Source: Methylomonas sp. AM2-LC (lineage in GTDB: Bacteria; Pseudomonadota; Gammaproteobacteria; Methylococcales; Methylomonadaceae). From it: a stretch of 64,000 bases of DNA. The stretch's first letter is position 1, and each line of letters begins with the position of its first letter. This document shows positions 27,479 to 63,296 of this stretch, one piece after another. The DNA is taken from NCBI RefSeq assembly GCF_039904985.1, contig NZ_CP157006.1, forward strand, positions 224,758 to 288,757, given 5' to 3'. The notes below the pieces were generated by a model. That model was not told where the DNA came from. It did no database searches and was given only the letters and a program-made list of their open reading frames with translations. Both the position numbers and the translations under genes were made by a program.

Positions 27479-28082
27479 AAATTTATCGCACCCAGGACAC
27501 CTACTAGCGAGCAAATCATCTATGAAGTTGCAGTAGCGGAGTGATATAGAATTTATTTTATTGTTAGATAATGTGTGTTGATATTTGAATTATTTTGTTT
27601 CATTGTTTTAACTATTGTTGAGCTATCAATCCCAAGCAATTGGTACCGGCACGGTTAATGATTTCGACGACAAAAACATAAATCCATGAATCTAAAATGG
27701 GAACGCACTATCGTGAGGTGTTGCAGGTTACTGAGAAAACACACCCTGAAACTGGAAGCGTAAAGAGACTATTTGGTTGTGAATCGCTGAACGTAGCTTC
27801 AATCTGTAAACAGAGTTTTCATTGGGGTTGTAAGCCGGAACCCCAGAAAATTTTGTCACATTGAATAAACCTATTTTGTGTATTCCAGCAACCAGTTCCG
27901 ATTCCACTCAGACCATCGATTCCGGCACGAATCCACCAGTAGTGAATGTCGGCTTTTGAGAGTGGTGAATTGACGCAACCGACCCATTGCGGTCAGTCAC
28001 TCGATCTGATTCAATGGCCGCAATTTGATCAATTTCGGACGTTGTTATTTATTAATGATAATATACAGAAAGGAAACTGCAC

Positions 28083-28664
28083 GTGGACGAGTCAAAATTT
28101 CAGAAACTTCTTACCGAACGAGGTGTTGTGATTGTTCACTTCTCTCACTTCGCCGTAATGGGGCACTATGTGGAGTTTCCAGATGATCTTGAACATGCAA
28201 TCGCCTTCTACCAATCTGAGACTCGATCCTGTTGCGCCTTCTGGCCTAGGCACAACATGAACCTACCAGGCTCTGTTGGCGTAATATTCAGACCCAGATT
28301 TGAACAAGTTCTATCTGTCCGGGCAGACGACTCTGGATCATCTGACTTCGGAGGCGCAGAAAATTCAGGTGGTCACGCACCTTCCGAACAGACCATTTTG
28401 GAAAGCCTCAATGTTACTGCGGGGCGCTACAACGAGTGGAGAGTAAGAGGCGCAGAGCCAGTTGGTATCTTCGTAGCCAACACTAACGATATATACGCCA
28501 AGAGGAAGACACAACTTTCACATAACGGCGAAACTTTTGAGGAAATTGGTTACACAAATATCGCAATATCATCAGTTTTCGAGGCGTTCCCAGAAATGCC
28601 AATCTTCACAATGAGGGCAGGCGAACTTTTTTGCATACGCGATAATGCCGCTAAGATTTATTGA
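28083..28664 (+). CDS. Hypothetical protein, 193 residues
   Basis: A GTG start at 28083 follows aaaggaaactgcac. The product begins MDESKFQKLLTERGVVIVHF and contains HFAVMGHYVEFPDDL, a Gly/Ser-rich loop (DDSGSSDFGGAENSGG) and RYNEWRVRGAEPVGIFV. The mix of strands and conserved Trp/His looks like a folded cytoplasmic protein, but no family is recognised. A GTTAGCG word 37 bases after the stop matches the right core of attC-like site 1, so it may once have been a cassette gene. Confidence 0.6.
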   Translation: MDESKFQKLLTERGVVIVHFSHFAVMGHYVEFPDDLEHAIAFYQSETRSCCAFWPRHNMNLPGSVGVIFRPRFEQVLSVRADDSGSSDFGGAENSGGHAPSEQTILESLNVTAGRYNEWRVRGAEPVGIFVANTNDIYAKRKTQLSHNGETFEEIGYTNIAISSVFEAFPEMPIFTMRAGELFCIRDNAAKIY

Positions 28665-28710
28665 AACCATCGTCGCTTTGCGGCACAACTTAATTAAGGC
28701 GTTAGCGCCA
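28665..28710 (+). other. Possible degenerate attC right end
   Basis: GGCGTTAGCGCC at 28699..28710 equals the right core and flank of the site at 18243, and is followed by a similar aaggag. A convincing left arm is missing. Confidence 0.25.
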
Positions 28711-28817
28711 TGAAGGAGATGATCTTTGATTAGCGAAAAAGGTATTTCAGTTGGTTTGGTAGCCTTTTTTAGACATTCTAGGCTTTGGAGACAAGGTGTA
28801 TGTAGATCTTCCTTCTT

Positions 28818-29678
28818 TTGTTACGAGAAAATTCTACTTTTAAGCGGTCCTTTTTTCAGGGGTGGATTACCCTCGAACCAAACTTTAAGTTAAAGGAGTT
28901 CTTTTTGCTTTCATATAGGGAAATCGATGACGATTATTGCTTGGGCATTGAGTTTGATGTTACCGATGTCGACTCATTAGCCAAGACAATTGCTTTAGTT
29001 CTTATTCAAGAATACGACATGGCTCGTAACTTAGTGACTGGAAATACTTTTTCAGAGGACACTGCCCAATTTGACCAAGACGAAATTGAAGACATCATCC
29101 AACGCCGCCTACACCCGACAGTCGTTTACCACCGCGATGGATTCCTGTTTCAACTTATGATGTGGCTCGCGGCCCATCTTGACTTGCAAGACAGCGATCT
29201 TGTAGCACTTCCACACTCGCAGGGTTCTGCGAAAGGTCAGGACAGTATCGTTGTCCATCGTTCTACGGATGCAGTGGTCGCGTTAACGATCTGTGAAGAT
29301 AAAGCGACAGAGAATCCTCGCGATATGGTTCGAGATGAGGTTTGGCCTGAAATTAAGGAGTATGAACAAGGAGGAAGACGGGACGAACTGCGATCAAACA
29401 TAATTGCAACGCTTGGTACTGGTGGCATTCCTAGTGCTGAGGCTCAAAATCTGATTCGCGGTATCTCTTGGAGCGGCAAACGTCGTTATCGTGTGCGTGT
29501 TACCGTTGAACCTAATCAGCGCACATCTAAATTATTCAAAGGTTTCGAAGAAATCGTCAACGGCGACAACGAAATGCGTAGAGGCGAAACTACAATATTG
29601 CCGTCGATGCGAAACTGGATGACAACCCTTGCTGGCAAAATTGAAAACGAGCTTCGTTGCTTTACACCTGGAGTTTAG
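28818..29678 (+). CDS. Putative PD-(D/E)XK-type nuclease partner of a helicase (Hachiman HamA-like role)
   Basis: The 286-residue frame opens with TTG at 28818; the true start may lie further in, since upstream sequence looks frameshifted. A possible restriction-nuclease core is KGQDSIVVHR...VALTICEDKATEN (about residues 137-165), with D and the ExK pair EDK. DEVWPEIKEY follows. The length and the tight coupling to a Ski2-like helicase (2-base gap) match nuclease-helicase defence pairs such as Hachiman HamAB, but I cannot see a diagnostic HamA motif. Upstream, 28727..28840 holds fragments (FLDILGFGDKVYV) that suggest a lost neighbour. Confidence 0.5.
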   Translation: MLRENSTFKRSFFQGWITLEPNFKLKEFFLLSYREIDDDYCLGIEFDVTDVDSLAKTIALVLIQEYDMARNLVTGNTFSEDTAQFDQDEIEDIIQRRLHPTVVYHRDGFLFQLMMWLAAHLDLQDSDLVALPHSQGSAKGQDSIVVHRSTDAVVALTICEDKATENPRDMVRDEVWPEIKEYEQGGRRDELRSNIIATLGTGGIPSAEAQNLIRGISWSGKRRYRVRVTVEPNQRTSKLFKGFEEIVNGDNEMRRGETTILPSMRNWMTTLAGKIENELRCFTPGV

Positions 29679-29680
29679 CA

Positions 29681-32600
29681 ATGTTTGATGCTGAGACCAC
29701 CAGTTTCATCCAGTCGGCTGTTCCTCTTGAAGGCTTGGATTTAGAAAAACTTCCGCAACAACTTACAGAAGCCTATGCAAATGTAGTCTCCGCTCGCCTT
29801 GGTGCAGTGAATATTGATGCTGAAGAAACACCTGCCAATTGGCAGGCTATGATTTTAGAGCTACGGCGCATAGCTGAAACATACGAAGGTCTTACGATAT
29901 TCCTTCCCGAGAATGATAATCACCGTCCATCCTGCGCTTTCGTAGCAGGATCGGCTCATTTCACTCTGAATCAAGCTGGGCGTATACAGGCTAGACTTTC
30001 TGGAAATGAGCAATCGTTCCCTTCGCTGTCTCCATATGCAGTAGCCCCTGAAGTCGCCGCGGCGTTACTTTTCCTAATCGGCGGACATCAAGCCGATGCG
30101 GCTGAAACAGCCAAGACATTCAATAAGGAAGATGCTAGTCCTGTAAGTAAACAATTGCTCGATTTTATAGCAGCGCTTGCATCTGGAAATGGGCAAAATC
30201 TTCGCCAAATCGCAGATATATCGCTGGTAACAGTGCAGAGATCCGATAGAGATTATTTGGCTGTGGCTGCTGATGTCATGTGGCGATCGCTTGCCAGTGC
30301 TGTTCAAATGATTGCAAAAGCCGTCCTTGGATTAGCGGCGGAAAATCCTATCGTGGTAATCAACGATGTTATTCAGCGGTTATCGAGTGCTAATCAACCA
30401 TTACATATTGGAAATTCAACTGTAAGACTCCAGCTCCAGCTAGCAGGCCCATATCATCTTGCTAAGCTTCTTTATGCAGCGACCGAAACACTGCTCAACT
30501 CTGCCGTTACCGCAACGAATCCACCAACTGGTACTGATAGTGCGACATGGTCAAATCTCACAAATCACCTAGCTGCTCAACGACCGTTTCTTTGGCGAAA
30601 CCACATAAAAGCCATTGATGAGGGATTTCTTGAAAGCGGTGCTTCATTTGTACTTACTTTTCCTACGGGGGCAGGCAAGACGACGATTACCGAACTTCGA
30701 ATCGCTACTGAATTGATAAGGGGGCGAACGGTTGTCTACTTGGCACCAACAAGAGCGCTCGTCGATCAAGTGGCTAATGAAATTTCTCGTACCGTTCGGC
30801 CTATAGCTCGTGATGTCGTGCTAGGAAGATTTCTCGAAGATTTTGGTGAATTAGCTGAAGGAAAAGTATTTGTCCAAACGCCCGAACAATGCTTGGCTTA
30901 TCTGACACATGATCCAGATGGTCATAGCAATATTGGTTTGATTGTTGTCGATGAATGCCATCAGCTCTGCGAACGTCCAAACGCCGATGGTTCGTCTCGT
31001 CTTCCTGGCCGTCGGGCTGTCGATGCCATGTGGGCCTTGTTGTCGCTACTTCAGCGCTCCCCTGCTTCCGACATCATTTTAATTTCTGCCATGGTCCGCA
31101 ATGGTGGTGAGCTGGGTCAGTGGCTCGAAACCATAACGCAGAGACCGGCAAGGGTACTTGATCTCGGATGGAAGCCAACGCGTCAAGTGCGAGGTGTGGT
31201 TGCTTACGAAAATTCCGAGGTTACTTTACTTAATGCAGAACTTAGAAGACGAAAGAATGCAAAACCGGGCAAAACGCCGGGGGCCGCAGACAAAAGAGGG
31301 CTTATGACTACCCCTGTCGGGCTCTTCTGTCATACGCAAGTTTGGAATACTACAAGTACTTTCGCCAAATTTCCTTTGCTTCCTGAAAGCGTATCGCTCG
31401 GTGTAAATAATTACTGGGGACTTTCGGCAAATAGAAACGAGATCGCAGGAAAACTTCTCGGAGCAACGGCGCTTGCCGGAATGCGTCCTATAGTGTTCAG
31501 CCAAAATATTGATTGGACGAGTACGATTGCCGAGCACGGAGCCGCCGAATTGGAAAAAGCTGGCATAGGTCCAGTCATGTTACAGCCGAATGAAGAAGCC
31601 CTATTCATTGCGGCTTCGATAGAATTAGGCGACACCAGCTTAGTGGAGCGTCCAGTCCAGCAGCGGGTAGGTTTGCACCATGGCTTACTTCTTTTGCCTG
31701 AACGGCTTGCCATGGAATCGGCATTTCGACGAAAAGATGGATTGCTAGCCTTGGTCGCTACACCGACAGTCGCACAAGGGATTAATCTGCCTGCGGAAGC
31801 AGTCATCATCGCCGGCGACGACAGGTGGACGGCGGACGGTTCGGAAACTCTAGCCGTTCATGAACTGCTCAATGCTGCAGGTCGAGCTGGGCGTGCTGGA
31901 CATTATGCCCATGGGATCGTTATAGATCTTCCCGGTAAAGTCTTTTCGGTTGGTCGAAACAGTAGCGGCCGTATCACGTTCGATGGATTAGCGCACGTGA
32001 TGGAGCTATTTGGATCGCCTGATCAATGTTTGAACATAGTTGACCCTATAACCCAAGTGATCGATCGGATTGCAACAGCCGGTGTTAATTCGGATATTGG
32101 CGAATATTTAGTCCGTAAAATTGGAGGTGTCGATGACAATATTCTCCGAAAGGTACTCGGTGCTACCTTGGGAAATGCTTTGCGTTCAGAACGTGACCAA
32201 AGGGTAGAAGCACAAGCTTTGCTACTCAAAACAGTAGCCGCAGAAATAGATATCGCCGCGAATACGAACCAACTTGATACTGAAACCTGGATTGAACTGG
32301 CCACTCAAGCCGGAGTATCGCCCGTAACCCTCGCAACCCTGGCAGCATCTTTACCCGAAGTGGATAAATTTCAAGCTTGGCCCTTCAAGGATTTGCTTAA
32401 TTATCATGCTCAGCTTTTACTCAGATACCCTGGAATGCTATTTGGTTTTGTTGATCCTCAATCGTCTGATCTCAACCGCATAATGCCAAGTCGCAGTCAA
32501 CCCATAAATGGGCAAACTGTTTATGAAGATGTTCGTGATTGGGAGCAGCGTTGGCAGAACGCTCTACAAGATGTACTGCCACAGTGGCTATCGGGTCAAC

Positions 32601-33010
32601 CGCTAAATGTGATTGGAAATTCTCTTCACGCCCACCGAGGGGCGAAAGGGCACGTAAAAGCAATACAGTTGGGTCGTCGATTTGCGCTCCAGGCTGCCGG
32701 CGGATTAGGTCATGGAGTTTCATTAGTCGCCCAAGTATTTGAGCGTAAGTACTCCGAAAAGGCCTCTCCAACACTATTATCTTGGCTTCGGTTAATAGCA
32801 GGCTGTGTGAGGGAAGGTTTTGACGACCCAGATAAATTACTCCTATTCTGGTATCTACGACGCTCCGAACCTGGCCTCTACCCTCGGGTACGTATCCATC
32901 AAATTTTCAACGAAAATGTTATCGGGCAACTTCAATCATGGCAAGATGAACCAGATATCGAAGCTCGTAGGCGCTTAATTCGTAACTTGATCGGCGAGGT
33001 TTCTGAATGA
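29681..33010 (+). CDS. SF2 Ski2-like DNA/RNA helicase, putative defence ATPase
   Basis: The 1109-residue protein has complete SF2 motifs: FPTGAGKTT (I, about 326-334), VVYLAPTRALVDQV (Ia), DECHQ (II, about 424), SAM (III, about 469), ATPTVAQGINLP (V, about 692) and NAAGRAGRAGHY (VI, about 730), the Ski2/Hel308 style. The first 300 residues and last 350 have no recognised domain. The start at 29681 follows ctggag and is two bases past the upstream stop. Its own stop overlaps a YhcG-like remnant by ATGA, so the ancestral operon had three genes: nuclease-like, helicase, YhcG nuclease. The helicase core is intact. A role in anti-phage defence is inference from that architecture. Confidence 0.7.
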   Translation: MFDAETTSFIQSAVPLEGLDLEKLPQQLTEAYANVVSARLGAVNIDAEETPANWQAMILELRRIAETYEGLTIFLPENDNHRPSCAFVAGSAHFTLNQAGRIQARLSGNEQSFPSLSPYAVAPEVAAALLFLIGGHQADAAETAKTFNKEDASPVSKQLLDFIAALASGNGQNLRQIADISLVTVQRSDRDYLAVAADVMWRSLASAVQMIAKAVLGLAAENPIVVINDVIQRLSSANQPLHIGNSTVRLQLQLAGPYHLAKLLYAATETLLNSAVTATNPPTGTDSATWSNLTNHLAAQRPFLWRNHIKAIDEGFLESGASFVLTFPTGAGKTTITELRIATELIRGRTVVYLAPTRALVDQVANEISRTVRPIARDVVLGRFLEDFGELAEGKVFVQTPEQCLAYLTHDPDGHSNIGLIVVDECHQLCERPNADGSSRLPGRRAVDAMWALLSLLQRSPASDIILISAMVRNGGELGQWLETITQRPARVLDLGWKPTRQVRGVVAYENSEVTLLNAELRRRKNAKPGKTPGAADKRGLMTTPVGLFCHTQVWNTTSTFAKFPLLPESVSLGVNNYWGLSANRNEIAGKLLGATALAGMRPIVFSQNIDWTSTIAEHGAAELEKAGIGPVMLQPNEEALFIAASIELGDTSLVERPVQQRVGLHHGLLLLPERLAMESAFRRKDGLLALVATPTVAQGINLPAEAVIIAGDDRWTADGSETLAVHELLNAAGRAGRAGHYAHGIVIDLPGKVFSVGRNSSGRITFDGLAHVMELFGSPDQCLNIVDPITQVIDRIATAGVNSDIGEYLVRKIGGVDDNILRKVLGATLGNALRSERDQRVEAQALLLKTVAAEIDIAANTNQLDTETWIELATQAGVSPVTLATLAASLPEVDKFQAWPFKDLLNYHAQLLLRYPGMLFGFVDPQSSDLNRIMPSRSQPINGQTVYEDVRDWEQRWQNALQDVLPQWLSGQPLNVIGNSLHAHRGAKGHVKAIQLGRRFALQAAGGLGHGVSLVAQVFERKYSEKASPTLLSWLRLIAGCVREGFDDPDKLLLFWYLRRSEPGLYPRVRIHQIFNENVIGQLQSWQDEPDIEARRRLIRNLIGEVSE

Positions 33011-33245
33011 CGCCAGATGCCATTTCCCTGATCGACATCGCCAAGTTACTACACCGACTGGCTAACCGAGTTCAAAACCCGTAACCATTCCGCCCAGCAA
33101 CGCGCGGCGTTATCCTTCAATTGCGAATTGATCTTGGTGTATTGGCAAATCGGTCGCAACATACTGGAACTGCAAGAGCAACAAGGCTGCGAGAGGGCGA
33201 AGGTGATCGAACGGCCTTCAGCTGTTTTCAAACCAATTTTGTAGG
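33007..33245 (+). pseudogene. 5' remnant of a DUF1016/YhcG nuclease gene
   Basis: Begins MTPDAISLIDIAKLL with its ATG overlapping the helicase stop (ATGA). After a frame change near 33055 it reads WLTEFKTRNHSAQQRAALSF and ELILVYWQIGRNILELQEQQ, the N-terminal signature of DUF1016 proteins (compare RLYWEIGQLIETRQKQQGWG in the intact gene at 57034). Only about the first 70 residues remain. 33246..33460 holds no recognisable gene. Confidence 0.65.
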
Positions 33246-33460
33246 GCGCGTCAACCCGAGCGTCTGGGCAGGGCAATCGTCTGAATTCAACCGTTCGACA
33301 GGTTTTTTAACCGACTTTTCCGGGGCTTCAATGTCTGCAATCAGAAGGTTTTCGCTCATTCGGAATCGCGCATGGATGGCAGCAATTGGCCGATACCCAG
33401 CATTCAAAATGTGGCTGGGTTTGTAGTGTAATCAATGGTGGATTTCATCGGGATACGCAC

Positions 33461-33937
33461 CTATTTCCAGCCGCCATCACATTCATCCCAATAACGGCCT
33501 GTTGATTCTTCCTGGAGTGACAGGTCGGTTATTTCGCAATTGCGAAAATCAGCTATTTGATAAATCTCATCCAGAATTTCGTCGATTTGTTCTTTCAGAT
33601 CGGCATCGTCGGCAAACTGAATCATAATCCGAGTTTCGATATCGTTCAGCTTCTGCCCTTGGTAATTTGTCAAAAGCATCCATGCGATTTTCTCTCGTAC
33701 TGCTTTTTTGCCGCGAGTAAATTTGCTGCCGTTTTCAACATGAACCCAAAGAATGATTGCAACGGATTTGTTCGCTTCGACTTCTGGATCGGCGCATTGT
33801 GTGCTTACTGCCAGTGACTTATGCTTGATTGCGCTGCTTATCGTACTGCGACTGCATTTAATAGTTTTCTGTACAACGTTCCATGAAGGGTGACCGTAAG
33901 GATTGCACCGTAAATGGGCAATAGCGGCTATTTTCAT
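33461..33937 (-). CDS. Hypothetical protein, 158 residues
   Basis: Begins MKIAAIAHLRCNPYGHPSWN, with a possible helix-turn-helix near residues 20-40 (NVVQKTIKCSRSTISSAIKH). A hydrophobic strand (SVAIILWVHVENG) and an acidic region (LKEQIDEILDEIYQIADF) follow. No family is recognised. It is convergent to the broken YhcG gene, alone on its strand, and could be a small regulator. Confidence 0.5.
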   Translation of the reverse strand: MKIAAIAHLRCNPYGHPSWNVVQKTIKCSRSTISSAIKHKSLAVSTQCADPEVEANKSVAIILWVHVENGSKFTRGKKAVREKIAWMLLTNYQGQKLNDIETRIMIQFADDADLKEQIDEILDEIYQIADFRNCEITDLSLQEESTGRYWDECDGGWK

Positions 33938-34152
33938 GCGTATCTAGCCTCTAGATGGGGTATTCTTCCATATTTGACATCGTTTTGTGAATTTTATAAG
34001 TGATTTAAGCGAAAGATTTGGTATACTAAAGCCAATTATTGGCAAAATATGGTGATTTTTACGTCAAATAATCCTAAATCACCTGAGTTTGTTTACTATT
34101 ACCCATTTACGGTGCAATCCTTACGGTCCCCCTGGCGCGTCAGCAGGCACGC

Positions 34153-34697: not shown

Positions 34698-36821
34698 ATT
34701 AGATTAGACGCTATCGTACGTTTTCGTACCACTGGACTTCAACCCCCTAAAACCATCATTAACGACGAAGCGGGTAACGATATACAGATTACCGACCGCA
34801 AAACGCAAATCACCCAACAGTATTTTGATGTGATGAACCGCAAAGTGCAAAGCAATCTGGCCGATAGCACCAGTGATATTTACACCTATAACAGCTTTGA
34901 CGATTTAGTGCAGGTGCAGAACAATGCCGTGAGTTATACCTATGGCTACGATAGCAAACACCAATTGCTGAGTAAAACCGACAACCGGCAGAACCTTAGC
35001 CTGAACTGGACGTTCGATGCGGTGGGTAATATCCACAGCAAAAGCGATTATCAGGGCAGTTTGACCACCTATCAATACGATGATAGCAACCGCCTGACTG
35101 CCGAAAGTAATCCCAGCTATCTGGAAGTCAGCTATCACTACGACCCTGCCGGACGCATACTGGACCGCATACTTAGTAACGGCGCACAAACCAATTATAC
35201 CTACGATAAAGGCGGGCGATTAACCTTACTGAAAAACAGTAGCGCAACCGGTGTATTGGTTAACAGCACTCAATATACCCGCGATAGCATTGGCAATATC
35301 CTGTCCGCTACAGAAGCCGCCAGCACCAGCCAGACGGCCGGGGTCAGCACTTTCAAATACGACCCAGAATACCGTTTGCTAACCGTCACTTATCCAACCA
35401 CGGCCAATAACGAAACGATAAGCTATGATCCGGTCGGCAACCGTAAAACCTATACCAAAGGCACACTGACCCTGTATTACAACGTCAATGCCGCCAACCG
35501 CCTGCTTACCACCCGCACTGTCAGCGCCACCGGTACGATTTACGAAACTTACGGCTACGATAATAACGGCAGCATGACCAGTATTAGCGGTAACCGTACG
35601 GTTGGCATGACTTGGGATGCACATAACCGCATTAGTCAAATGCAAATCAACGCCATTCCAGCGTATTCTTACCAATACGATCCCTCCGGGTACCGTATCC
35701 AGAAAAATGCCGGCAGCATCAAAAACTATTACCTGCAAGCTGAACACTTGGAAGCCATTTACGATAATATCGGTACCCTGCAAGCCAAATACATGCGCGG
35801 CAGCGTCATCGACGAAGTGGTCAATGGCTACCAGTTGGATAGCACCGGCAAGCTGGTCAATTATACTTACCATCATGACGCGCTGGAATCGGTACTGGGG
35901 CAAAGCGGGCATGATGGCACGGTATTAGCCGCCCAAGGCTACACCTCTTTTGGAACCATATCCAACGCCTCCGGTAGTAGTAACAACCTGTTGAAATATA
36001 CTGGACGTGAGCAGGATACAGAAACGGGGTTTTATTATTATCGAGACAGGTATTATGATCCTATCACTGGGCGGTTTATTAGTGAAGACCGTAAGGGGTT
36101 TGGAGCAGGGGTTAATTTTTATACCTATGCCAATAATAATCCGGTTAATGGGAATGATCCAACTGGTTTTGTTGATGTTACTTACACGGCAGGTTCAAAC
36201 AATCCTACAATTACGAACTCGCCATTAGCAGGAGTTAATTATCAGGTATCTGATTCAAATGGTAATACTGCCTCAATGGGAGTTGGTGTTTATAATATGG
36301 TAGTTCAGCAAGGTAATAGTTTTAATACTGTTTTCAATGTTAACCAAACTAATTCATACATAAACGGTGGCGTTAATTATATTCTAAATAATAGGCTAAA
36401 TGGTGCGACTGGCGATGCTAGTTTTGACGAAATTGCACAACAGTCTGTAACTGGTGGCCCATGGGATACAAAACAATACTTGCCTAATAATGCAGTTTAT
36501 TTTTTAAATGACCAAGCCGAATTAAATGACTATGTTGGTAATGTAATTTGGGCAGCAGGTGTTAATTCTTTAGGTTTATCACAAACAACAGCAATAATTG
36601 GCGCTCAGGCATATGCTTTGAAGTCAAATGGCACTTTTGATGATCCTAGAGATCAAGAAGCCATAAACTACGGATATTCTCTTACATTGCCTTTACCCAC
36701 ACAATCATCAGGTAGTTTATCCCTATCTGATGAAGAAGATAGTGCGGCGGCTGATGGAGGTTTTGTTATTTATCCAAATAAATCAAATACAAATCAAATA
36801 AGATCTGTTTATTCAAAATGA
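34698..36821 (+). CDS. Rhs-repeat protein C-terminal part with polymorphic tip, 5' truncated
   Basis: Open from 34698 without a natural start (first ATG 34830). YD repeats (YGYDSKHQL, YQYDDSNRL, YHYDPAGRI and more) run to the Rhs core box LKYTGREQDTETGFYYYRDR...NPVNGNDPTG ending near 36172. A roughly 215-residue tip follows, unlike the core in base composition. It contains NSPLAGVNYQVSDSNGNTA and FDEIAQQSV and ends DGGFVIYPNKSNTNQIRSVY. Tips of Rhs proteins are usually toxins delivered to rivals, here with no known catalytic motif. The next gene overlaps by 4 bases and encodes a membrane protein, as expected for a cognate immunity factor. Confidence 0.75.
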   Translation: MRLDAIVRFRTTGLQPPKTIINDEAGNDIQITDRKTQITQQYFDVMNRKVQSNLADSTSDIYTYNSFDDLVQVQNNAVSYTYGYDSKHQLLSKTDNRQNLSLNWTFDAVGNIHSKSDYQGSLTTYQYDDSNRLTAESNPSYLEVSYHYDPAGRILDRILSNGAQTNYTYDKGGRLTLLKNSSATGVLVNSTQYTRDSIGNILSATEAASTSQTAGVSTFKYDPEYRLLTVTYPTTANNETISYDPVGNRKTYTKGTLTLYYNVNAANRLLTTRTVSATGTIYETYGYDNNGSMTSISGNRTVGMTWDAHNRISQMQINAIPAYSYQYDPSGYRIQKNAGSIKNYYLQAEHLEAIYDNIGTLQAKYMRGSVIDEVVNGYQLDSTGKLVNYTYHHDALESVLGQSGHDGTVLAAQGYTSFGTISNASGSSNNLLKYTGREQDTETGFYYYRDRYYDPITGRFISEDRKGFGAGVNFYTYANNNPVNGNDPTGFVDVTYTAGSNNPTITNSPLAGVNYQVSDSNGNTASMGVGVYNMVVQQGNSFNTVFNVNQTNSYINGGVNYILNNRLNGATGDASFDEIAQQSVTGGPWDTKQYLPNNAVYFLNDQAELNDYVGNVIWAAGVNSLGLSQTTAIIGAQAYALKSNGTFDDPRDQEAINYGYSLTLPLPTQSSGSLSLSDEEDSAAADGGFVIYPNKSNTNQIRSVYSK

Positions 36822-37162
36822 AGTATTTAATTTCCTTTATTCGTTATTTGATTATCAGTTCATTATTCGGTATTTTGTATGCAATAATGTTTCTTGAGGT
36901 TGATGAATTACTGTGTAAAAGTAAAAGTGGTCAAACTGCCGCTGGGGGTGGTGCGGCGATTGGACTATTATCTCTAAAATATTTTTTTATATCATGGATA
37001 GTTTCAATGGTTATTTTATTTGCCATTAATATAATGCAAAAATATAGTTTATTGAAATCAAATACATCTTTTTCGTTTAAAATGCTCATTGTTTTAGGAG
37101 TGACATTAGTCATTACTTTTGATTCTATTTTAAGCTTTTGGCGGTCATTAGATTGTGTGTAG
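36818..37162 (+). CDS. Putative membrane immunity protein for the Rhs tip
   Basis: The 114-residue product has three hydrophobic segments (about residues 3-27, 46-68 and 83-105) and no signal peptide cleavage site. It starts inside the Rhs stop (ATGA), so it is made from the same transcript. Placement and membrane location are the grounds for calling it an immunity protein. If correct, the tip may act at the inner membrane. No family is recognised. Confidence 0.55.
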   Translation: MKYLISFIRYLIISSLFGILYAIMFLEVDELLCKSKSGQTAAGGGAAIGLLSLKYFFISWIVSMVILFAINIMQKYSLLKSNTSFSFKMLIVLGVTLVITFDSILSFWRSLDCV

Positions 37163-37895
37163 TTCTAACTTTTATGCTTATTGTTTGAATAATCCGGTTA
37201 ATGGGAGTGATCCGAGCGGGTTGGATGTAATTAAGTTTTCTGTTTCAGGAAATTCATTTGGTATTGGTGGTTCAGCTGGTTTATTCATAAGTTACCCGGG
37301 ACCCGGTGGGAATGACAATAATGATATTGGAGGATTTGTGACAGGCCAACCACCTTCGTTACCAGCAAGCTTGGCCTTGCAAGCTTTGGATCCTAGTAAT
37401 CCAGTTTTAGATATGTCTGCAGGTATTGGAGCAGCTAAATTGACAGCGGATTTTGGATGGGATGCCAGTCGTAGTTCCATGGATGGAATAGGTCTCACTA
37501 GTTATGGTGGTTATGGAGTTGGGCTTAAGACAGGTGGAAGTCTTAGTTGGGATATTCCATCAGGAGGTGGCGATCCAACATTATCGGAATTAGCCCCATC
37601 GGGTGTTTCAATAAATTATGGTTATCAGGGTGTACCTTATCTTCCATTCAATGCTGGGTTTCAAGTTGATTATACAAAGTCATTTTCAATAGGTGACCTT
37701 TTGATTAATTATGTTTTTCCATTAATAGACAATGTAACGAATGGTTGGTTTTCTGGGACAAATAATAAATCTTCTAGTGCCGCCGGATCGAATACTGTCG
37801 ATGATCCTGCTATAAATAACGAAACTGATGGAGGCTTTGTCCTTTATCCAAATATGTCAAATACTAATCAACTGCAAAGTGTTTATAGAAAATAA
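37161..37895 (+). pseudogene. Orphan Rhs C-terminal tip
   Basis: Begins with the end of an Rhs core (SSNFYAYCLNNPVNGSDPSG), homologous to NFYTYANNNPVNGNDPTG in the full gene, and then a different tip of about 215 residues rich in Gly and Ser (GIGGSAGLFISYPGP, WDIPSGGGDPTLSEL). It ends DGGFVLYPNMSNTNQLQSVY, almost the same tail as the active tip. It has no start of its own except a GTG that overlaps the previous stop. This is a displaced tip that could be recombined onto the core. Confidence 0.7.
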
Positions 37896-42951: not shown

Positions 42952-43198
42952 GGGGTAGTTACCACATAGCTGCCAAAACCGCCATCTTGGTTAAACTTAA
43001 CCAAAAGCATCCCAAATGCAGTGATCGAGTGCCTCTCATAAGTCGAAAACGAGCCTATTGAGAGTGATTTGGCGTATTTTGTGGTTTAGTGATCAAACAC
43101 GGGTTAAAATCCGAAAAAACTTAACCTATTGATTATATTTAATTAATGCCCCAATCAGGAGAAGATGGCACTTTTGGCAGCTATGTGGTAACTACCCC
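42952..43198. mobile_element. 247-bp Tn3-derived miniature element
   Basis: Ends GGGGTAGTTACCACATAGCT and its reverse complement-like partner (ctatgtggtaactacccc) match the inverted repeats of the Tn3 transposon at 58806..62710. Non-coding inside. Flanks TACTG / ATACC do not match, so the junction is recombinant. It is a TIME of the Tn3 at 58.8 kb. Confidence 0.75.
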
Positions 43199-53610: not shown

Positions 53611-53966
53611 AAAGCTATGTAGGCGTCAACCAGTGCGAGAAGCGGCGGCATTAGACCGCAGGAATGGCGTTGGTGGCCACGCCCCAGATCACAAGTTCAA
53701 GTTCCTCATGCATGGCGATAACCGTTAACATTTGTTCGTCAACATCAGACATAATGGTGGCGTTAAACAATCAAGTGTTTTTTTAACGTTTTGCCGCACC
53801 CCCAAAAAATCGTTTAAAAAATTTATCCACCCCCCAAAAAACGTTAAAAAACTAAGTAAAAAAAGTATAGGCGTGTTATAGTTAAATAATGATACGTAAA
53901 AAAAGTAAAAATGCTCATGTGTAAATTGAAAGATGATTACGAGTCTGATCGAATGGATTCAATATA

Positions 53967-54521
53967 ATGAAAATTGGTTACGCCAGAGTATCGACCAATG
54001 ACCAAGACACCCAACTTCAGTTGGATGCGCTTAATCTTGTTGGTTGCGAACGGATTTATGAAGAAAAGCAATCCGGAGCAAAAACAGATAGGCCAGAATT
54101 ACTACAATGTCTAAAATCCCTTAGGGAAGGGGATCTATTGATAGTATGGAAGCTGGATCGATTAGGTCGTAGTTTGCCGCATCTCATTGAGACGGTGACT
54201 GATTTGGAAAATCGCCAGATTGGTTTTCAGTCCTTAACTGAAAACATCGATACCACCAGTCCAACCGGAAAATTGATTTTTCACATTTTTGGCTCGCTTG
54301 CTGAATTCGAGCGTGGTTTGATCCGGGAGCGGGTCAAGGCCGGTTTGGCTGCTGCCAAAAAGAAAGGCAAGAAATTTGGTCGTCCTGATGCGCTGAATGA
54401 AACAGATAAAACTATGGCGTTAGCAATGTTCAACGGCGGTGCGACCAAAATTGATATTGCCAGGCACTTCAAGGTGACCCGGCAAACCATCTATACAATG
54501 TTAAAAGACTACGACACCTGA
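53967..54521 (+). CDS. Serine recombinase (resolvase/invertase)
   Basis: The 184-residue product has the catalytic Ser in YARVSTNDQD (about residue 9), the family block LLIVWKLDRLGRS (about 57-69), and a C-terminal helix-turn-helix (TKIDIARHFKVTRQTIYTML, about 159-178). It is close to Pin/Tn3 resolvases. It precedes the WGR gene by about 40 bases and may serve as a resolvase for an element whose ends are lost. AT-rich DNA with repeated aaaaaa and gttaaaa lies in 53760..53960. Confidence 0.85.
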   Translation: MKIGYARVSTNDQDTQLQLDALNLVGCERIYEEKQSGAKTDRPELLQCLKSLREGDLLIVWKLDRLGRSLPHLIETVTDLENRQIGFQSLTENIDTTSPTGKLIFHIFGSLAEFERGLIRERVKAGLAAAKKKGKKFGRPDALNETDKTMALAMFNGGATKIDIARHFKVTRQTIYTMLKDYDT

Positions 54522-54841: not shown

Positions 54842-56374
54842 ATGCCGATACCCAAAATTCTCCAAGCACTGTTAGATGCAGGCGAATGGAACGATGCCGA
54901 ATTCAAGGAATCTCGTTCAGCACTGCCAAAATCTGCTTTCGAAACCGTTTCAGCCTTTGCTAACACACACGGAGGTTGGATTGTGCTGGGTATCAAGCAG
55001 GACGGTGAGAGTTTTGAGATTTGTGGTGTCGATGTCCCCGACAAAATACAAAATGATTTCCTATCCGTGCTGCATGCGGACAACAAGGTCAATCACGACT
55101 TGGACATCACCGAACGGCGCTATCAACAGGATGGCAAGATCGTGTTGGCATTTCACGTTGCTGAAAATCCCCGTACCCGTAAGCCAGTTTATCTGGATGG
55201 TGACATTCGCCGTACCTTTATCCGCAAGGGCGGTGGCGATTACAAAGCGCAGTCTCAGGACATTGAACGGATGCTGCGCGATGCCAGCACCGACCGCTGG
55301 GATGGGCAGCCCTTCACCCGAGTCGATCTCGACGAGACGTTGCACCCCGGCAGTCTCAAGTGGTATCGCAATCGCTTTCATACAGTCAATCCGGGTTTCG
55401 ATGCCGACCAATCCGATCTCGATTTTTTGTACGACTGGGGATATCTGATCAAGGATGGCGGCAGACTCCTGCCCAGCCATGCGGCTATTGCGTTGTTTGG
55501 CTCGCTACGTGCAGTGCGTAATTTACTGCCTCGCCCGATCCTGGATTTGCAGTTTCTTGGCTATGGTACCCAGGACGAGATGCCGGAAACGCGCTGGATA
55601 GACCGTTTGGTATGCGAGGAAAATATCGTACAGAGTTGGCAGCAGCTTTTGGCAAAATACTTGTTTTTCATGCCGAAACCATTCAAGGACATCGATCCAA
55701 TGACTTTGGAGCGTCGCGATGCACCGCCCAGTTTTCGGGTGTTTCGCGAGGCAGCGATGAATCTGCTGATCCATCAGGATTATAGCGACCATTCTCGCAA
55801 GGCGACCATCCAGTTCTTCAATGATGGCATTCGTTTCTGGAATCCTGGAGATATTTTCGGCGACGATACCCGTTTGCTGGAGCCCGGCGAAAAAGATGTT
55901 CGAAACCCGGCCATAGCCATGGCTATGCGGCGTGTCGCTATGTGTGAACAAGCAGGTACTGGTTTGCGCATGATGCAAAGAGAATGGACCGGTATGGGTC
56001 ACGCTGCACCGATCTTAAGCAATGATCGGGCTAGAAAATCATTCGAGTTGTTCATCCCGGAGCGTGATCGAGACGCACAGCCCGTCGCTGAATTCGATGC
56101 GACCGAAAAGAGTTCCCCTCAAGTCACCCCTCAAGTCACCCCTCAAGTCACCCCTCAAGTCGGAGCGCTTCTCGCCGTGATATCAGGTGAAAACGACAGG
56201 GAAACACTACAGCTAGCGCTGGGATTGAAAGACCGTGCTCATTTCCGCCAAGCTTACCTTAGCACAGCATTGGAGGCTGGTTTGATCGAAATGACTATTC
56301 CCGAGAAACCCACCAGTCGCATGCAACGCTACCGGCTCACCGATTTAGGGCGAAGCGTTAAAGAAAAAATGTAG
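54842..56374 (+). CDS. AlbA_2/Schlafen-type ATP-binding transcriptional regulator
   Basis: The 510-residue product opens with an AlbA_2 (Schlafen) domain: EFKESRSALPKSAFETVSAF (about residues 21-40), GGWIVLGI and RTFIRKGGGDYKAQ (about 122-135). A GHKL-like ATP-binding half follows, with REAAMNLLIHQDYS (about 305-318; N-box-like) and NPAIAMAMRRVAMCEQAGTG (about 357-376; G1/G2-like). A Pro-Gln-Val-Thr repeat linker follows at about 427-440, and a winged-helix end. Such regulators or defence sensors are frequent on accessory islands. Start taken at 54842 after agggag. Confidence 0.8.
   Translation: MPIPKILQALLDAGEWNDAEFKESRSALPKSAFETVSAFANTHGGWIVLGIKQDGESFEICGVDVPDKIQNDFLSVLHADNKVNHDLDITERRYQQDGKIVLAFHVAENPRTRKPVYLDGDIRRTFIRKGGGDYKAQSQDIERMLRDASTDRWDGQPFTRVDLDETLHPGSLKWYRNRFHTVNPGFDADQSDLDFLYDWGYLIKDGGRLLPSHAAIALFGSLRAVRNLLPRPILDLQFLGYGTQDEMPETRWIDRLVCEENIVQSWQQLLAKYLFFMPKPFKDIDPMTLERRDAPPSFRVFREAAMNLLIHQDYSDHSRKATIQFFNDGIRFWNPGDIFGDDTRLLEPGEKDVRNPAIAMAMRRVAMCEQAGTGLRMMQREWTGMGHAAPILSNDRARKSFELFIPERDRDAQPVAEFDATEKSSPQVTPQVTPQVTPQVGALLAVISGENDRETLQLALGLKDRAHFRQAYLSTALEAGLIEMTIPEKPTSRMQRYRLTDLGRSVKEKM
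56117..56161 (+). repeat. 12-bp tandem repeat coding a PQVT linker
   Basis: Unit cctcaagtcacc occurs about 3.7 times in frame in the AlbA_2 gene, giving PQVT repeated. Copy number may vary between strains. Confidence 0.7.
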
Positions 56375-57033: not shown

Positions 57034-58131
57034 ATGAATACTGAGCTAACGTTTTATGGTGATTTATTAGGCGATATCAAAGCGCGTATCCAAGCAGCGC
57101 AAGTATGCGCGTTGATCATGGTCAACGGCGAATTGCTGCGTTTGTACTGGGAGATCGGGCAATTGATTGAAACAAGGCAAAAACAGCAAGGTTGGGGGGC
57201 GTTTGTCATTCCCCGTTTGGCGCATGACCTGCATAACGAATTGCCGGAAGTCAAAGGTTTTTCCGAACGGAATATCAAGCGCATGTTGGCTTTCTACCGC
57301 GCCTATCGGGAGCCAGACTACTTTGTGCCACAAGCTGCGGCACAATTGTCAGACAGCGAAAAAGTGCCGCAACCTGTGGCACAAATAGCAACTCGTAATT
57401 TACTCTGGCAAGTACCATGGGGCCATCACGCCGTATTGTTGGAAAAAATCAAAGACCCGGCGACCCGGCGCTGGTACATGGCTAAAACCCTCGAATTTGG
57501 CTGGAGTCGCAGCATTCTGCTGATACAAATCGAGAGTGTGGCGCATTTGCGCGAAGGAAACACAGTCAATAACTTCGCTAGTCGTCTGCCGGCACCGCAA
57601 TCTGATCTGGTGCAGCAGACTCTCAAAGATCCATATCTTTTCGACTTTCTGACACTGGAAAAAAATTTTCACGAACGAGAATTGGAAACCGGGTTGGTGC
57701 GCCATTTGGAAAAGTTCCTGCTCGAACTCGGCCAAGGCTTTGCCTTTGTCGGTCGCCAATATCAGGTCAGCGTAGGCGAAGAAGACTTTTACATTGACCT
57801 GCTGTTTTATCATCTTAAACTACGATGCTTTGTGGTGATCGAACTTAAACGCGGTAACTTCAAGCCTGAATACGCCGGAAAACTCAATTTCTACTGTAAC
57901 CTTGTTGACGACGTAATCCGGCATGAGCATGATCAGCCCACAATTGGCCTAATGCTTTGCCAAGGCAAAAACCGGGTAATCGCCGAGTATGCTCTGCGCG
58001 GCATCGATAAACCGATTGGCATTGCCGATTACGATTTAGTGCGAGCATTGCCGGAATCTTTACAAAGTAGTTTGCCTAGCATTGAGGATATTGAGGCTGA
58101 GTTGGGGGCTGAAGCAGGACAAACGGAATGA
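57034..58131 (+). CDS. DUF1016/YhcG PD-(D/E)XK nuclease
   Basis: The 365-residue product has the DUF1016 N-terminal domain (GELLRLYWEIGQLIETRQKQ, WGAFVIPRLAHDL, FSERNIKRMLAFYRAY) and the C-terminal YhcG nuclease core: EDFYIDLLFYHLKLRCFVVI then ELKRG (about residues 250-275), with D and ExK. These proteins cut DNA and often belong to restriction or defence loci. The gene is close behind the WGR/AlbA island and may be part of it. Full length; a broken homologue follows the helicase at 33007. Confidence 0.85.
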   Translation: MNTELTFYGDLLGDIKARIQAAQVCALIMVNGELLRLYWEIGQLIETRQKQQGWGAFVIPRLAHDLHNELPEVKGFSERNIKRMLAFYRAYREPDYFVPQAAAQLSDSEKVPQPVAQIATRNLLWQVPWGHHAVLLEKIKDPATRRWYMAKTLEFGWSRSILLIQIESVAHLREGNTVNNFASRLPAPQSDLVQQTLKDPYLFDFLTLEKNFHERELETGLVRHLEKFLLELGQGFAFVGRQYQVSVGEEDFYIDLLFYHLKLRCFVVIELKRGNFKPEYAGKLNFYCNLVDDVIRHEHDQPTIGLMLCQGKNRVIAEYALRGIDKPIGIADYDLVRALPESLQSSLPSIEDIEAELGAEAGQTE

Positions 58132-58281
58132 GCGGCAGTGCTGTCTATGCAACAAAAAATGGGTAAGTTGTCTCGGGACAGCAAATGGCGACCATCCGGT
58201 TGGAGGTAGTGTTGCAAAAAAATCTATGAAACAATTCAGTCGTTTGTTTAAACTCAACCAAACCTCGGAACCATTCTAAAA

Positions 58282-58805: not shown

Positions 58806-58880
58806 GGGGTAGTTACCTCATAGCTGCCAAAAGTGCCATCTTCGTCAGAAGAAAGATTATAGTTCAATATAATCAATAGA

Positions 58881-59438
58881 TTAACTTTTTCTAGCTTTAG
58901 CCAATACCCTATAAACCGTAGCTTCGCCTACGCCAACCTGATTGGCAATCTCGATCTTGGTTAAACCTTCAGTATTTAAACGGATAATTGTTGCCCTGCG
59001 AGTGGTGTCAATGGGTTTTCGACCCGTATATTTGCCATCCTCTTTTGCCTTAGCGACACCCTCGCGTTGCCGCTCAAGCATCATTTCACGCTCGAATTGG
59101 GCAATGCCACCTAAAATGGTCAGCATTAATTTACCCGTTGTGGTTTTGGTATCCATGCCCAAATTCAAAATACGTAAACCGACTTGTTTACGTTCAAGCT
59201 GATGAATTATAGACATTAAATCCCGCACTGAACGAGCTAAGCGATCCAGCTTTGTCACCACTAGGACATCGCCTTCTCGAACAAACTCTAAAGCAGCATC
59301 AAGTTGTACCCGGTTGCCAACCGAAGAAACCTGTTCCTGAAATACTTTTTCGCAACCGATACTATGCAGCTCGGTAATTTGAGATTCAAAACCAGCCATT
59401 TGGTCGATTGTCGATGTGCGTGCGTAACCAATAATCAT
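58881..59438 (-). CDS. tnpR: Tn3-family resolvase (serine recombinase)
   Basis: The 185-residue product has YARTSTIDQ with the catalytic Ser (about residue 9), VVTKLDRLARSVRDL (about 59-73), FEREMMLERQREGVAKAKED and a C-terminal helix-turn-helix (GLTKIEIANQVGVGEATVYR, about 156-175). It resolves cointegrates at res. It is transcribed in the same direction as tnpA, downstream of it, with the probable res site in the 151-base gap. Confidence 0.85.
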   Translation of the reverse strand: MIIGYARTSTIDQMAGFESQITELHSIGCEKVFQEQVSSVGNRVQLDAALEFVREGDVLVVTKLDRLARSVRDLMSIIHQLERKQVGLRILNLGMDTKTTTGKLMLTILGGIAQFEREMMLERQREGVAKAKEDGKYTGRKPIDTTRRATIIRLNTEGLTKIEIANQVGVGEATVYRVLAKARKS

Positions 59439-59442
59439 TTTA

Positions 59443-59540
59443 CTATCATAAGGTTCTAGTATATGTGATAGAATAACTATCTTAATTAAAAATAAACTCT
59501 AAAGATAGCTTTTACCGCCATTTTTCAAGCTATCACTAGA
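59443..59540. promoter_or_regulatory. Probable res site
   Basis: Subsite-like inverted pairs: CTATCA / TGATAG (59443..59471), CTATCTT / AAGATAG (59477..59518) and a further GCTATCACTAGAGC (59529..59542). The location between tnpR and tnpA is canonical. Confidence 0.6.
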
Positions 59541-59589
59541 GCATGCCCTATTGGTAGTGTTGTGCGGCTTCTTAAGTTCAATTTATTCA

Positions 59590-62550
59590 TTAGGCTGCCA
59601 TTCTTTCGATGGGCAAGCGCTTGTCCATATCCAATTCAAACCACCCGTAGGGATTTATGTGAGCATAAATCAGCGGTGTCAACGCCCTGAAATCGGCAGA
59701 GGTCATTCGGCTATGCCAGATACTTTCCTTCAGTACTTGCTGTATCATAAGTGTGTTCACATACACTAGGCAAAGCTGGAGCAGATGCAGCGATAGTACC
59801 GACAGCTCTTGGTCTTCAATTCGGTTACTCGCTATTTCGCGACCGTCGCCATAAAAAATAAATCCGTTAGCGCTGTTCCAATTTTCAACCACGTTCAGAC
59901 CTGCGTGAATCTCCTGGCGCAGGGTTTCTGAAATAATGTATTGGCACAGAAAGATGGTTTTGATGACTTTACCTAGTTCCGCCAATGCTTTGTAGGTCGG
60001 ATGTTGGACGTTATTACGCGTGAACCGGGACAAGATAGCCTCAGCCTGGGCCGTACCCAATTTTAACGCCGTTGTGTATTTCACCATTTCATCGTACTGC
60101 TGGCGAATCAACTCCCAGTTGATGGAACGGGTCAATATGGGATCAAGATGGGGGTAACGAGTGCCACTGCCTTTTTCCGGCAGGTAGAGTTTTTGTGAGG
60201 CAATCCCTTTTAACCTAGGCATTAAGCTAAACCCCAGCAAATGGCAAAATGCGAAGCCGACTTCACTTTGTCCATGGGTATCGGTATAACTTTTCTGTAT
60301 ATCAATATCCACTTTATGCCGCAGCACACCTTCAATCATTGACGCCACTTCAGAGGATGAACAACGCTTTAACTGAGAGTAGATACAGACAGATTGTCCC
60401 TCGACGTGCCAATAAATCATCACTCCGCGACCACCATAGCGAACATGCCATTCCGTCATGAGATTCTGATCCCAGGCACCGATTTTTGTGGAATCAGAGG
60501 CGCAACTGGTTGTACCTTCACCCCAGATTTCAGGAAGCCTTACGGCCAGCGTCGCATTGGCGACTTGCGAAATAGCCTCACGTAAGGTATTTTTTTCAAG
60601 AAATGAATGTTTGATGTGGAGTAGTTCTTTATAACTGGCGTCATGTCCGCTTGCGGCAATCCTCTTTAATCCAGCATTTGTACCCAGCGCAAATAGGGAC
60701 AACAATAAACGTTTTTGTATCGTGTCTTGGTCTAGCGTTTCACGTTGTCGGCTGCTCTGAAACAGCTGGGTAAAATTAACCCGTAGGTCTGCTTCCTTTA
60801 GAACATCAAGCAGTCCAGTCGCTGGCCAGCGATTGAATATCTCGGCTTTGAGTCGAGCCAAGTTTTCGGGCTCCGCTTGAGGTACTTGGGGAGTAATCCG
60901 AATGCGATTCTTACCCGTAGGAGTAATTTTAACCAATGGATTTTTGGGCATTTCCTTATTCGTATGCTTAAGAGCCTTCTCTAAATCCGTTTTCAGTTTC
61001 TCTATCAGGTCTTCCGGATTCTTGGGTAAATTTAATGCCTCATAATAAGCGTCACTGTTGCTGCTAAAATCGCCCGGTAAGTCTTCATCCGGATTACGGT
61101 AACGACAAGCATCTACCACCCAGATTTCTTTGCTCCGCAAACGCTCACGCAAAGCCTGTAATACCTCGATTTCATAATTGATGCGGTTAATCCTATCATC
61201 GCCATCCTTATCTTGTTCGATGACCGTATCGAATCGTTTGGATTTAACCACGCCGGCGACGGGGATATCATCGATATCAGTAAAATATTGACCACGATAT
61301 TCCTGATTGCTTTTGAGGTAATTTATGGCATCCAGCACAGGCGTGTGCTTGCTGTTATTGCTACGGAATTCCAGTGTATTGAGTAGCGGTACGATCATAC
61401 GCCGGTAATGGTTGCCGTAAGAACGCCGAAGCACTTGATGGACTTCCTGCTGATAGGCCTTGCCGCTTGATTTGTACTCTTTCACCAGGTTTTTCAGAGT
61501 TTCTAAGCTCACTTTAGGATACAAGACATCTTTTATAATCCCTTCAGGCTGTTCAACAGCCACTTCGGCCAACTTGAATAACAACCCGGTTTTGCCATGG
61601 ACTAGTTTTAAATCCTCAAGCAGTTTTTTTTCAATTTTATTTTCGGCACGTTTGCCAATGTTATGGACGACTTGAATCAGCAGATCAATCAAGTTATCCG
61701 TTATTTCCATTTGGCGTTGCCAACAAAAAATGGCCACTAAGGGATAGCAAATCACATCAGGGTGGCGGCGCAACTCCCACGCCGATTCAGTCGAAGCCCG
61801 ACGGTAATATTTTTGCAGCCATTTCGCAGGCAGAGATGCAAGCAGTTCGCCTGGGATGGCCAAGTTTCGTAGGTAGTTTATTTTTTCGACCGCTTGCAAA
61901 ATTCGGTCAAGCCCTACTTTTCCCGTATCGTCTTTTAACCAACTGACGCTCGAAAAGGTGTTGCTTAACGCAGAACTGCCATCCGCATCGTCTTCAGCAA
62001 CATTCAGCAAGCCATCTATCAATTTTTTTGTGTTCGGATTTAAACCTTTATCGATCCGGTTGAACAAATCCGTTTCAAACGTGTGTGTCGTTGAGCGGAT
62101 CAATCGCTCAAGCCGCATTGACCCAGGTGGCTCTATGTGGCGATTCCTAAACCAATGGATGGCATAGTCCTGCAACGCATTGAAGGTTGGATCGGACGGT
62201 AGCATATCAGTCAGTAATACCTTGGCAAACTCAGACTTGTCATTTTTATTAGCACGACGTATTCCCAAAAATGAAAGGATTTCAGTCCGGTCACGCTTGC
62301 CCGTGCGGCCAATGAATTCGTATTGGCTTAAATTGTCGCCAGAAACGCCAATTTGATTGGCCAAATAACCCAAAACCGCTTCAGGGATTTCACGGCAATG
62401 CTCGGGGAAATGACCTTCATTCTGAAAATATTTGAGCGACACAACAAAACCCAAACGGCCATGAGGGGTTTTTTTATACAGCAGGTCGGACTCTTCAGTC
62501 GTCAAATACCAATGGGCATGTAATTCGTCTGCTTGCCATTGCCATTTCAC
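59590..62550 (-). CDS. tnpA: Tn3-family transposase
   Basis: The 986-residue product is full-length. The N-terminal part has a DUF4158-type region ([35 protein letters not shown]). The catalytic core carries [11 protein letters not shown] (first Asp, about residue 683), YTDTHGQSE (second Asp, about 752) and [10 protein letters not shown] (Glu, about 889). The C-terminal [16 protein letters not shown] is typical. It recognises the GGGGTAGTTACC-type ends of this transposon and of the 247-bp element at 42952, so it could mobilise both in trans. Confidence 0.9.
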
Positions 62551-62710
62551 GATAGAATCCGTTCACACTGAATTTAATTGATAAAGATACTATCATTAGA
62601 TTCATATAATTGATAGAGCTTTTTAGAAAAAATTCCTTATGGATTTTTTGCTGCCATGAAATTCAATTCAACCAAGATGGCACTTTTGGCAGCTATGTGG
62701 TAACTACCCC

Positions 62711-63264
62711 ATATTGAGGCCATTGCCAAGGAAAAACCGAACTTCGATCAGATTGTCGCTACTCTTGGCCTAAAAGAAATGACGCAAGGTACGTTGATCC
62801 GCAAGTTATGCACCTATACCGCGCCGAATCCGACACGCCGTGCGATCTTTGACTTCGATAAACTAATACGCAGCATTTACACCTTACGATATTTGCGCGA
62901 TCCGCAACTGGAGCGCAATGTTCATCGCTCACAAAACCGTATTGAATCCTATCACCAGCTACGCGCAGCCATCTCGAAAGTTGGCGGAAAGAAGGAATTG
63001 ACCGGACGCACCGACATAGAAATCGAGATCAGTAACCAGTGTGCAAGGCTGATTGCCAATGCGATCATCTACTACAACTCGGCGATATTGTCCAAATTGC
63101 TGACCCGATACGAAGCAAACGGTAACGCCAAAACTCTGGCATTGATTACTCAAATATCCCCGACCGCGTGGCGACATATCCTGCTGAATGGGCACTACAC
63201 ATTCCAAAACGACGGCAAATTGATCGACTTGGATGCGCTGGTGGAAGGACTGGAATTAGGGTGA
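62711..63264 (+). pseudogene. 3' end of the tnpA of the 35.5-kb element
   Basis: Open from the border of the inner Tn3 at 62711, with no natural start (first ATG 62779). LRYLRDPQLERNVHRSQNRI, ESYHQLRAAIS and then CARLIANAIIYYNSAILSKL and QISPTAWRHILLNGHYTF are the C-terminal third of Tn3 TnpA. The stop falls at the inner edge of the right inverted repeat (63261..63296). The first two thirds have been deleted. Confidence 0.85.
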
Positions 63265-63296
63265 CAAAAATTTCTGGGGTTCCGGCTTACAACCCC
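63261..63296 (-). repeat. Right inverted repeat of the 35.5-kb candidate
   Basis: Minus strand: GGGGTTGTAAGCCGGAACCC then CAGAAATTTTTGTCAC, one difference from 27824..27859. Followed on the + strand by TTTCATT, as at the left end. Confidence 0.8.

Follow-up and report, generated by a model that had tools for sequence, protein, structure and literature searches.

Whether the end of a Methylomonas plasmid carries one large transposon or the scattered ends of several is the question raised by this locus. The window (the whole stretch of DNA analyzed, 64,000 bp) is the last 64 kb of plasmid contig C2 (288,757 bp) of Methylomonas sp. AM2-LC, the genome of which consists of three contigs (the chromosome C1 and the contigs C2 and C3). 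For window positions 27824-63296, a first-pass annotation had proposed a single 35.5-kb Tn3-family transposon hidden by later insertions. Here, we found both ends, a resolvase stump at the left, a transposase stump at the right and nested insertions between them (Table 1), and this region is very likely what is left of a single Tn3-family transposon, probably a member of the Tn4662a/Tn5501 group. The original proposal is thus supported in part: both ends come from one Tn3 lineage and bear the outer stumps of one core, but the evidence does not extend to movement as a 35.5-kb unit.

Outer ends and gene stumps

The two 36-bp arms (27824-27859 and 63261-63296) match at 35 of 36 positions (97% complementary) and are now 35.4 kb apart. 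Both termini begin with GGGG, as is characteristic of the inverted repeats (about 38 bp) of the Tn3 family. TTTCATT is present directly outside both ends and its register is exact over 7 bp, so that the matching ends and the flanking repeat of the first-pass annotation were both recovered. When pieces of the same plasmid were used for comparison, a 7-bp match in register was expected by chance at about 1.0e-4 for pairs of random positions, and a random right flank equalled the left flank of the window at 1.9e-4. The match of the inverted repeats was rejected as sole proof of a pair. These repeats are conserved across the lineage and their match is therefore not pair-specific; the right end of a related element on a plasmid of Methylobacter sp. 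YRD-M1 is identical to the left inverted repeat of the window in 36 of 36 bases.

Directly inside the right end lies the stump of a transposase gene (tnpA), the product of which aligns with positions 230-389 of the 389 positions of the Pfam profile DDE_Tnp_Tn3 (PF01526; E 7e-46, 157 bits, cut-off 24), and the predicted presence of a tnpA 3' end at this place was thus borne out. The stump shares 96.2% identity with TnpA of genome G036, 92.4% with that of YRD-M1 and 88.3% with that of Tn4662a (180 aa). A full-length TnpA has about 1000 residues, and 826 of 1009 are gone here. Since the protein is a remnant, its truncation bears on activity and not on descent. Membership in the Tn3 family was decided on the ends and on TnpA; the 5-bp target duplication that is usual for the family, but does not define it (6-bp duplications have been published and many copies have no duplication), is not seen here. 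An autonomous transposon would carry an intact tnpA, and for the Tn3 family a resolvase (or tnpI / tnpS-T) and a resolution site are expected. In the element, tnpA is present as a stump only, its own resolvase is reduced to a C-terminal stump, and a short resolvase of foreign origin, together with a res-like region, occupies 53835-54521.

The stump at the left end belongs to a long serine resolvase, and the full-length G075 protein (322 aa) carries a recognizable Resolvase domain. On plasmid C3 of the same genome, the corresponding left end is followed by a 322-aa resolvase reading toward the end (97% to G075) and by divergent TnpA residues 1-306 (93% to G036). Genome G039 has the same left half, with a long tnpR (92%) and TnpA residues 1-35 only. 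When the window was searched at E 1e-8 for the N-terminal parts of a resolvase and a TnpA of the element's type, neither was detected. Resolvase residues 182-322 at the left end and TnpA residues 827-1009 at the right end are therefore outer stumps that belong to one core and still have its gene order and orientation. In the YRD-M1 element (11.2 kb, ATCTA on both sides), the left end is followed by the C-terminal piece of a resolvase, cargo, the N-terminal piece of the resolvase, toxin-antitoxin genes, tnpA and the right end. Its tnpA is complete (87% to G036) and matches 62711-63264 at 92.4%; the earlier annotation had suggested a search for such full-length transposases. In G036 and G012, a closely similar TnpA is paired with a short resolvase instead of the long one. 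A search of the genome gave no further copy of this C-terminal TnpA domain, C3 holding N-terminal pieces, and the element is consequently now non-autonomous. Next in similarity within the genome comes an intact TnpA with 74% identity.

These data are best explained by a core of about 5 kb that would have comprised the left end, the long resolvase reading toward it, the divergent transposase and the right end. This core would have arrived by replicative transposition with duplication of its target and then grown by successive insertions (a 5.6-kb insert in the left end, the three recombinases, miniature elements, remnants of other Tn3 elements, and cargo of Rhs and defence-like type). Its machinery would have been lost by deletions starting from the end of a 245-bp miniature element on the resolvase side and from the end of a second Tn3 on the transposase side.

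At this second Tn3 (58806-62710), homology to tnpA of G036 (locus L079) and G012 (L081) sets in at position 62711 exactly; the tnpA genes of G036 and G023 run on upstream of that point. The earlier annotation had noted that this Tn3 lacks a target duplication and its flanks are indeed unlike (AGTAA vs. ATATT). Two truncated neighbours (tnpA and a TPR gene) and the missing duplication fit adjacent deletion by intramolecular transposition, a mechanism described in PMC9330008. For the proposal that the arrival of the second Tn3 cut the transposase by deletion, both truncations were observed, but recombination of two copies would look identical. If two copies of the second Tn3 had recombined (or been resolved at res) and the DNA between them had been removed, one copy, unlike flanks and two truncated neighbours would also be left, and a miniature relative of this Tn3 is close by at 42952. 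This alternative, which concerns only the truncated tnpA, falls somewhat short of an even chance; there is nothing specific against it, but adjacent deletion requires one copy only (PMC9330008).

Repeat length, lone ends and alternative origins

Several observations weigh against a single element, and a number of them concern the length of the flanking repeat. We surveyed 80 of 191 related loci, and 36 of them had, within the stretch, a right end together with a candidate left end; in the remaining loci, the right end was at a contig edge (7) or unrecognized (6), or no left end was recognized (31). The 36 pairs had direct repeats of 5 bp in 12 cases (two of which are one strain with the same flanks), of 4 bp in one case and none in 23 cases, while repeats of 6-10 bp did not occur. 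When nine pairs were read by eye, 5-bp repeats were seen in four (L091, TGCTT; YRD-M1, ATCTA; the more distant G049, TTTAA; G036, AACGT) and no repeat in five (L094, C1:4863764-4884220, C3:86843-97384, a 236-bp pair at C3:24760, and pDK1). Captured Tn4662a gave 5-bp repeats and Tn3-derived miniature elements have repeats of 5 or 6 bp, as stated in PMC4133298. Compared with these values, the 7-bp repeat of the window is odd. A plain 5-bp duplication was rejected because the register is wrong (TCATT and TTTCA do not match directly against the GGGG ends), and a 5-bp register works only with two extra T at one end. Thus, the duplication is either truly 7 bp long or consists of 5 bp plus two extra T. 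The flanks in pDK1 share TTCTGA at distances of 2 and 3 bp from GGGG; this might be an earlier case of additional bases beside an end, or a coincidence. No Tn3 literature reporting both 7-bp and 5-bp repeats was found, but this is a weak test.

The earlier annotation had suggested a search for the empty site in related plasmids. For this purpose, the joined flanks (predicted uninterrupted site ...GAGTTTTCATTGTTAAAT...) were used as query against 151 and 311 genomes of the order (overlapping sets, both including the own genome), and 2-3 candidates were scored per genome. The site was found neither in the 310 other genomes nor in 72,556 plasmids; matches were the two halves of the window itself and otherwise about 25-35 bases in G047, G267 and G309. 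An empty site could not have fixed the duplication length, since 7 bp and 5 bp plus two T leave the same site. Comparison of the plasmid backbone yielded nothing useful; the left 24 kb of the element had matches in three plasmid records with at most 6% coverage, and the protein of the right flank had two weak relatives only (28% and 35%).

Relatives carrying only one end had been named as a sign that would speak against one element, and such loci were encountered in part. The 70-base left end was matched in 20 of 151 genomes (own genome included) at E 1e-5, in some of them over the inverted repeat only, and many loci have a left end for which no partner was found. For the chromosomal left ends at C1:1304826, 2470170 and 2942704, a scan of about 50 kb inward with two patterns detected no partner. 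In addition, the complete compact core was not seen unbroken in any relative, and an internal remnant Tn3 end at 46484 has a flank beginning with TTTCA like the outer flanks (5-mer chance about 0.002). As a separate observation, Tn3-type left ends with a conserved inner stretch of 50-165 bp (the three chromosomal ones, L093:11996 and others) occur at many sites in related genomes, with no partner in the fetched stretches.

Part of this picture would also be expected if two transposons of one lineage had each left one end and the 7-bp match were due to chance or to recombination between copies: left ends without visible partner are frequent, flanks fail to match in 23 of 36 loci with both inverted-repeat types, and the family shows repeats of a different length. 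Against this explanation, which we consider improbable, stand the low chance of the match (about 1e-4), the complementary stumps of one resolvase-transposase core at the two ends, and the YRD-M1 element, in which the same two kinds of ends belong to one element. Less credible still are two neighbouring elements, one combining the right end with a lost left end near 53.5 kb and the other the 27824 end with the remnant end at 46484: the short resolvase (53967) is 91% identical to the one that a chromosomal relative carries next to its left end, the remnant right end is flanked by TTTCA, and plasmid C3 has this type of left end followed by a 46484-type right end, but neither pattern search nor alignment detected left-end sequence upstream of the short resolvase (the weaker homology to the chromosomal relative around this gene starts at 53761), the 46484 end is a 55-bp remnant with a flank that fits only with two extra bases, and the 7-bp match is present in the outer pair only.

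The insert in the left end and the remaining interior

The left end is interrupted by a 5.6-kb insert, which is flanked by CCTATTT repeats (27870-27876, 33460-33466), the second of which is followed by CCAGCC. In C3, C1:2470170 and G039, this left end is unbroken (...AATAA(A/T)CCTATTTCCAGCC...). At C1:2942704 (L040), a 1.4-kb segment with the same ends is located at the same point and carries a PEP-CTERM gene. In G075 (L243, L125), the first 103 insert bases (counted from two bases before the end) are on one contig and the right boundary is on another; the right boundary plus resolvase covers 502 bp at 99.8%, and other DNA adjoins both pieces. When 17 left ends, drawn from 35 matching rows, were aligned, 15 carried a TGCGTATTCC-like sequence at that point, and the right boundary of the insert was found in only two of the 17, plus G075 on another contig. 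The insert might be an undescribed mobile segment that settles at a fixed CCTATTT point inside Tn3 left ends (ends TGCGTATTCC / GGRATACGCA) with varying cargo, but we regard this as doubtful, the rarity of the right boundary speaking against it. A single ancestral insertion that was later shuffled is the sober alternative.

No recombinase was recognized in the scan, which covered the three larger open reading frames (ORFs) of the insert. The best solved relative of its helicase is the Ski2-type SLH1, with HamB second, and no HamA match was found. The 286-aa ORF and the HamB-like helicase (28818-33010) may form a Hachiman-like defence pair. On the chromosome, a PEP-CTERM-like segment of about 1.28 kb is 98.8% identical between L036 (C1:1304826, +443..+1717) and L040 (C1:2942704, +152..+1436); the two copies are in opposite orientations, and the left ends that they adjoin are only 78% similar.

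Table 1. Positions in the window of the element, its flanks and the segments inside it
Feature	Position	Strand	Basis
Left copy of direct repeat TTTCATT	27817..27823		read from sequence
Left terminal inverted repeat (IRL)	27824..27859	+	inverted-repeat pair
Rest of transposon left end; resumes at 33467 in uninterrupted relatives	27860..27876	+	alignment to relatives
5,583-bp insert, ends TGTGTATTCC / GGGATACGCA	27877..33459	+	uninterrupted site in C3, C1:2470170, G039
193-aa ORF	28083..28664	+	no Pfam, PADLOC or NCBIfam match
286-aa ORF	28818..29678	+	no family or solved relative found
1117-aa DEAD/Ski2-like helicase	29657..33010	+	best PADLOC model HamB (Hachiman)
Stump of the element's long serine resolvase (C-terminal codons 182-322 of 322)	33464..33886	-	99.3% to full-length G075 protein
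245-bp miniature Tn3-like element cutting the resolvase at codon 182	33888..34132		inverted repeats; no 5-bp duplication
Rhs-repeat gene (34830-36821) and following DNA	34830..37205	+	35941-37205 99.8% to plasmid C3
KfrA-like plasmid protein	41802..42857	+	sequence similarity
Miniature element with ends of second Tn3	42952..43198		inverted-repeat pair
Three tandem tyrosine recombinases (RIT-like)	43199..46263	+	100% identical to C2:15171-18235
Remnants of two further Tn3-type ends (46429, 46484)	46380..46484	-	pattern/alignment
Res-like region and second, short resolvase gene (53967-54521)	53835..54521	+	91% to tnpR of chromosomal relative
SLFN_AlbA_2 / Fic-like C-terminal protein	54842..56374	+	between 93-bp repeats 54704-54796 and 56643-56735
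YhcG PDDEXK nuclease (PADLOC candidate PDC-S02)	57034..58131	+	PADLOC
TPR gene truncated by second Tn3, 174 aa	58282..58805	+	32 of 34 homologs 263-293 aa (search admitting only 0.55-1.75 x query length)
Second Tn3 (tnpR 58881-59438, tnpA 59590-62550)	58806..62710	-	arms and gene matches
C-terminal 183 codons of the element's own tnpA (TnpA 827-1009)	62711..63264	+	Pfam match
Right terminal inverted repeat (IRR)	63261..63296	-	inverted-repeat pair
Right copy of direct repeat TTTCATT	63297..63303		read from sequence

The interior is a mosaic that includes several Tn3-type remnants. Copies of the 245-bp miniature element are present in C3 and a partial copy in C2. An AAA ATPase gene is among the interior genes, and others are read as PEP-CTERM-like from a repeated motif. 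The tandem tyrosine recombinase trio, which we take to be of the RIT type, is a module with three copies on the plasmid (13949-17244, 43199-46263 and C2:15171-18235), two of which are identical and one of which is about 75% alike. Another miniature element with 37-bp Tn3-like ends has copies just outside the left flank (23112-23436, 25960-26284, 26470-26546). In plasmid C3 (67233-115307), 27,917 bp repeat perfectly at an offset of 20,158 bp, which reflects either tandem amplification or an assembly artefact.

Known relatives and biological meaning

The closest named relative is in the Tn4662a/Tn5501 group (Tn4662a, pDK1, NC_014124), the group to which our comparison with named elements was confined. 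Besides the likeness of the TnpA end, the inverted repeats share GGGGNTGTANGCCGGAANCCCAGAAA with those of Tn4662a and IRR overlaps the tnpA end. In contrast to the long resolvase at the left end of the window, Tn4662a on pDK1 has a toxin-antitoxin pair and a short tnpR beside tnpA, and whereas its captured copies have 5-bp duplications (PMC4133298), the window has a 7-bp repeat and both genes are stumps. Tn4662a has been assigned to the Tn3000 subgroup in PMC7157771 and to a Tn501 subfamily in PMC4133298.

The 11.2-kb Tn3 on plasmid unnamed1 of YRD-M1 (NZ_CP091425) resembles the element of the window in its left end, which likewise carries the C-terminal piece of a resolvase, in a cargo that splits the resolvase, in tnpA (92% in the shared end) and in having the same right end. 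It differs in its complete tnpA, its 5-bp ATCTA duplication, its other cargo and the absence of an annotated second Tn3 inside. The resolvases of Tn5044 and ISXc5 are of the long type, and the resolvase described here is likened to them by type, not by sequence. Serine resolvases of the long type, about 310 aa in length, are known to continue beyond the resolvase domain in a C-terminal extension (PMC12217951), and the resolvase here (322 aa) has such an extension. At 33888 and 42952, the pieces of 245 and 247 bp, which have Tn3-type ends, resemble the TIMEs (Tn3-derived miniature elements) and mosaics dealt with in PMC4133298, but unlike TIMEs neither of them is surrounded by a 5- or 6-bp duplication in the window.

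The element itself was not found in a limited search of the literature. It is a well-preserved case of a known kind of element, the least ordinary point of which is the insert at a fixed place in left ends. If this insert were site-specific, other mobile segments, in this case one with a defence-like helicase, would use Tn3 ends as docking points. Taken together, these data indicate that a small Tn3 can swell to 35 kb while decaying, with both machinery genes cut exactly at later Tn3-type insertions and the outer ends intact. For annotators, this means that a large island may have Tn3 ends even though the genome yielded no intact transposase of that type.

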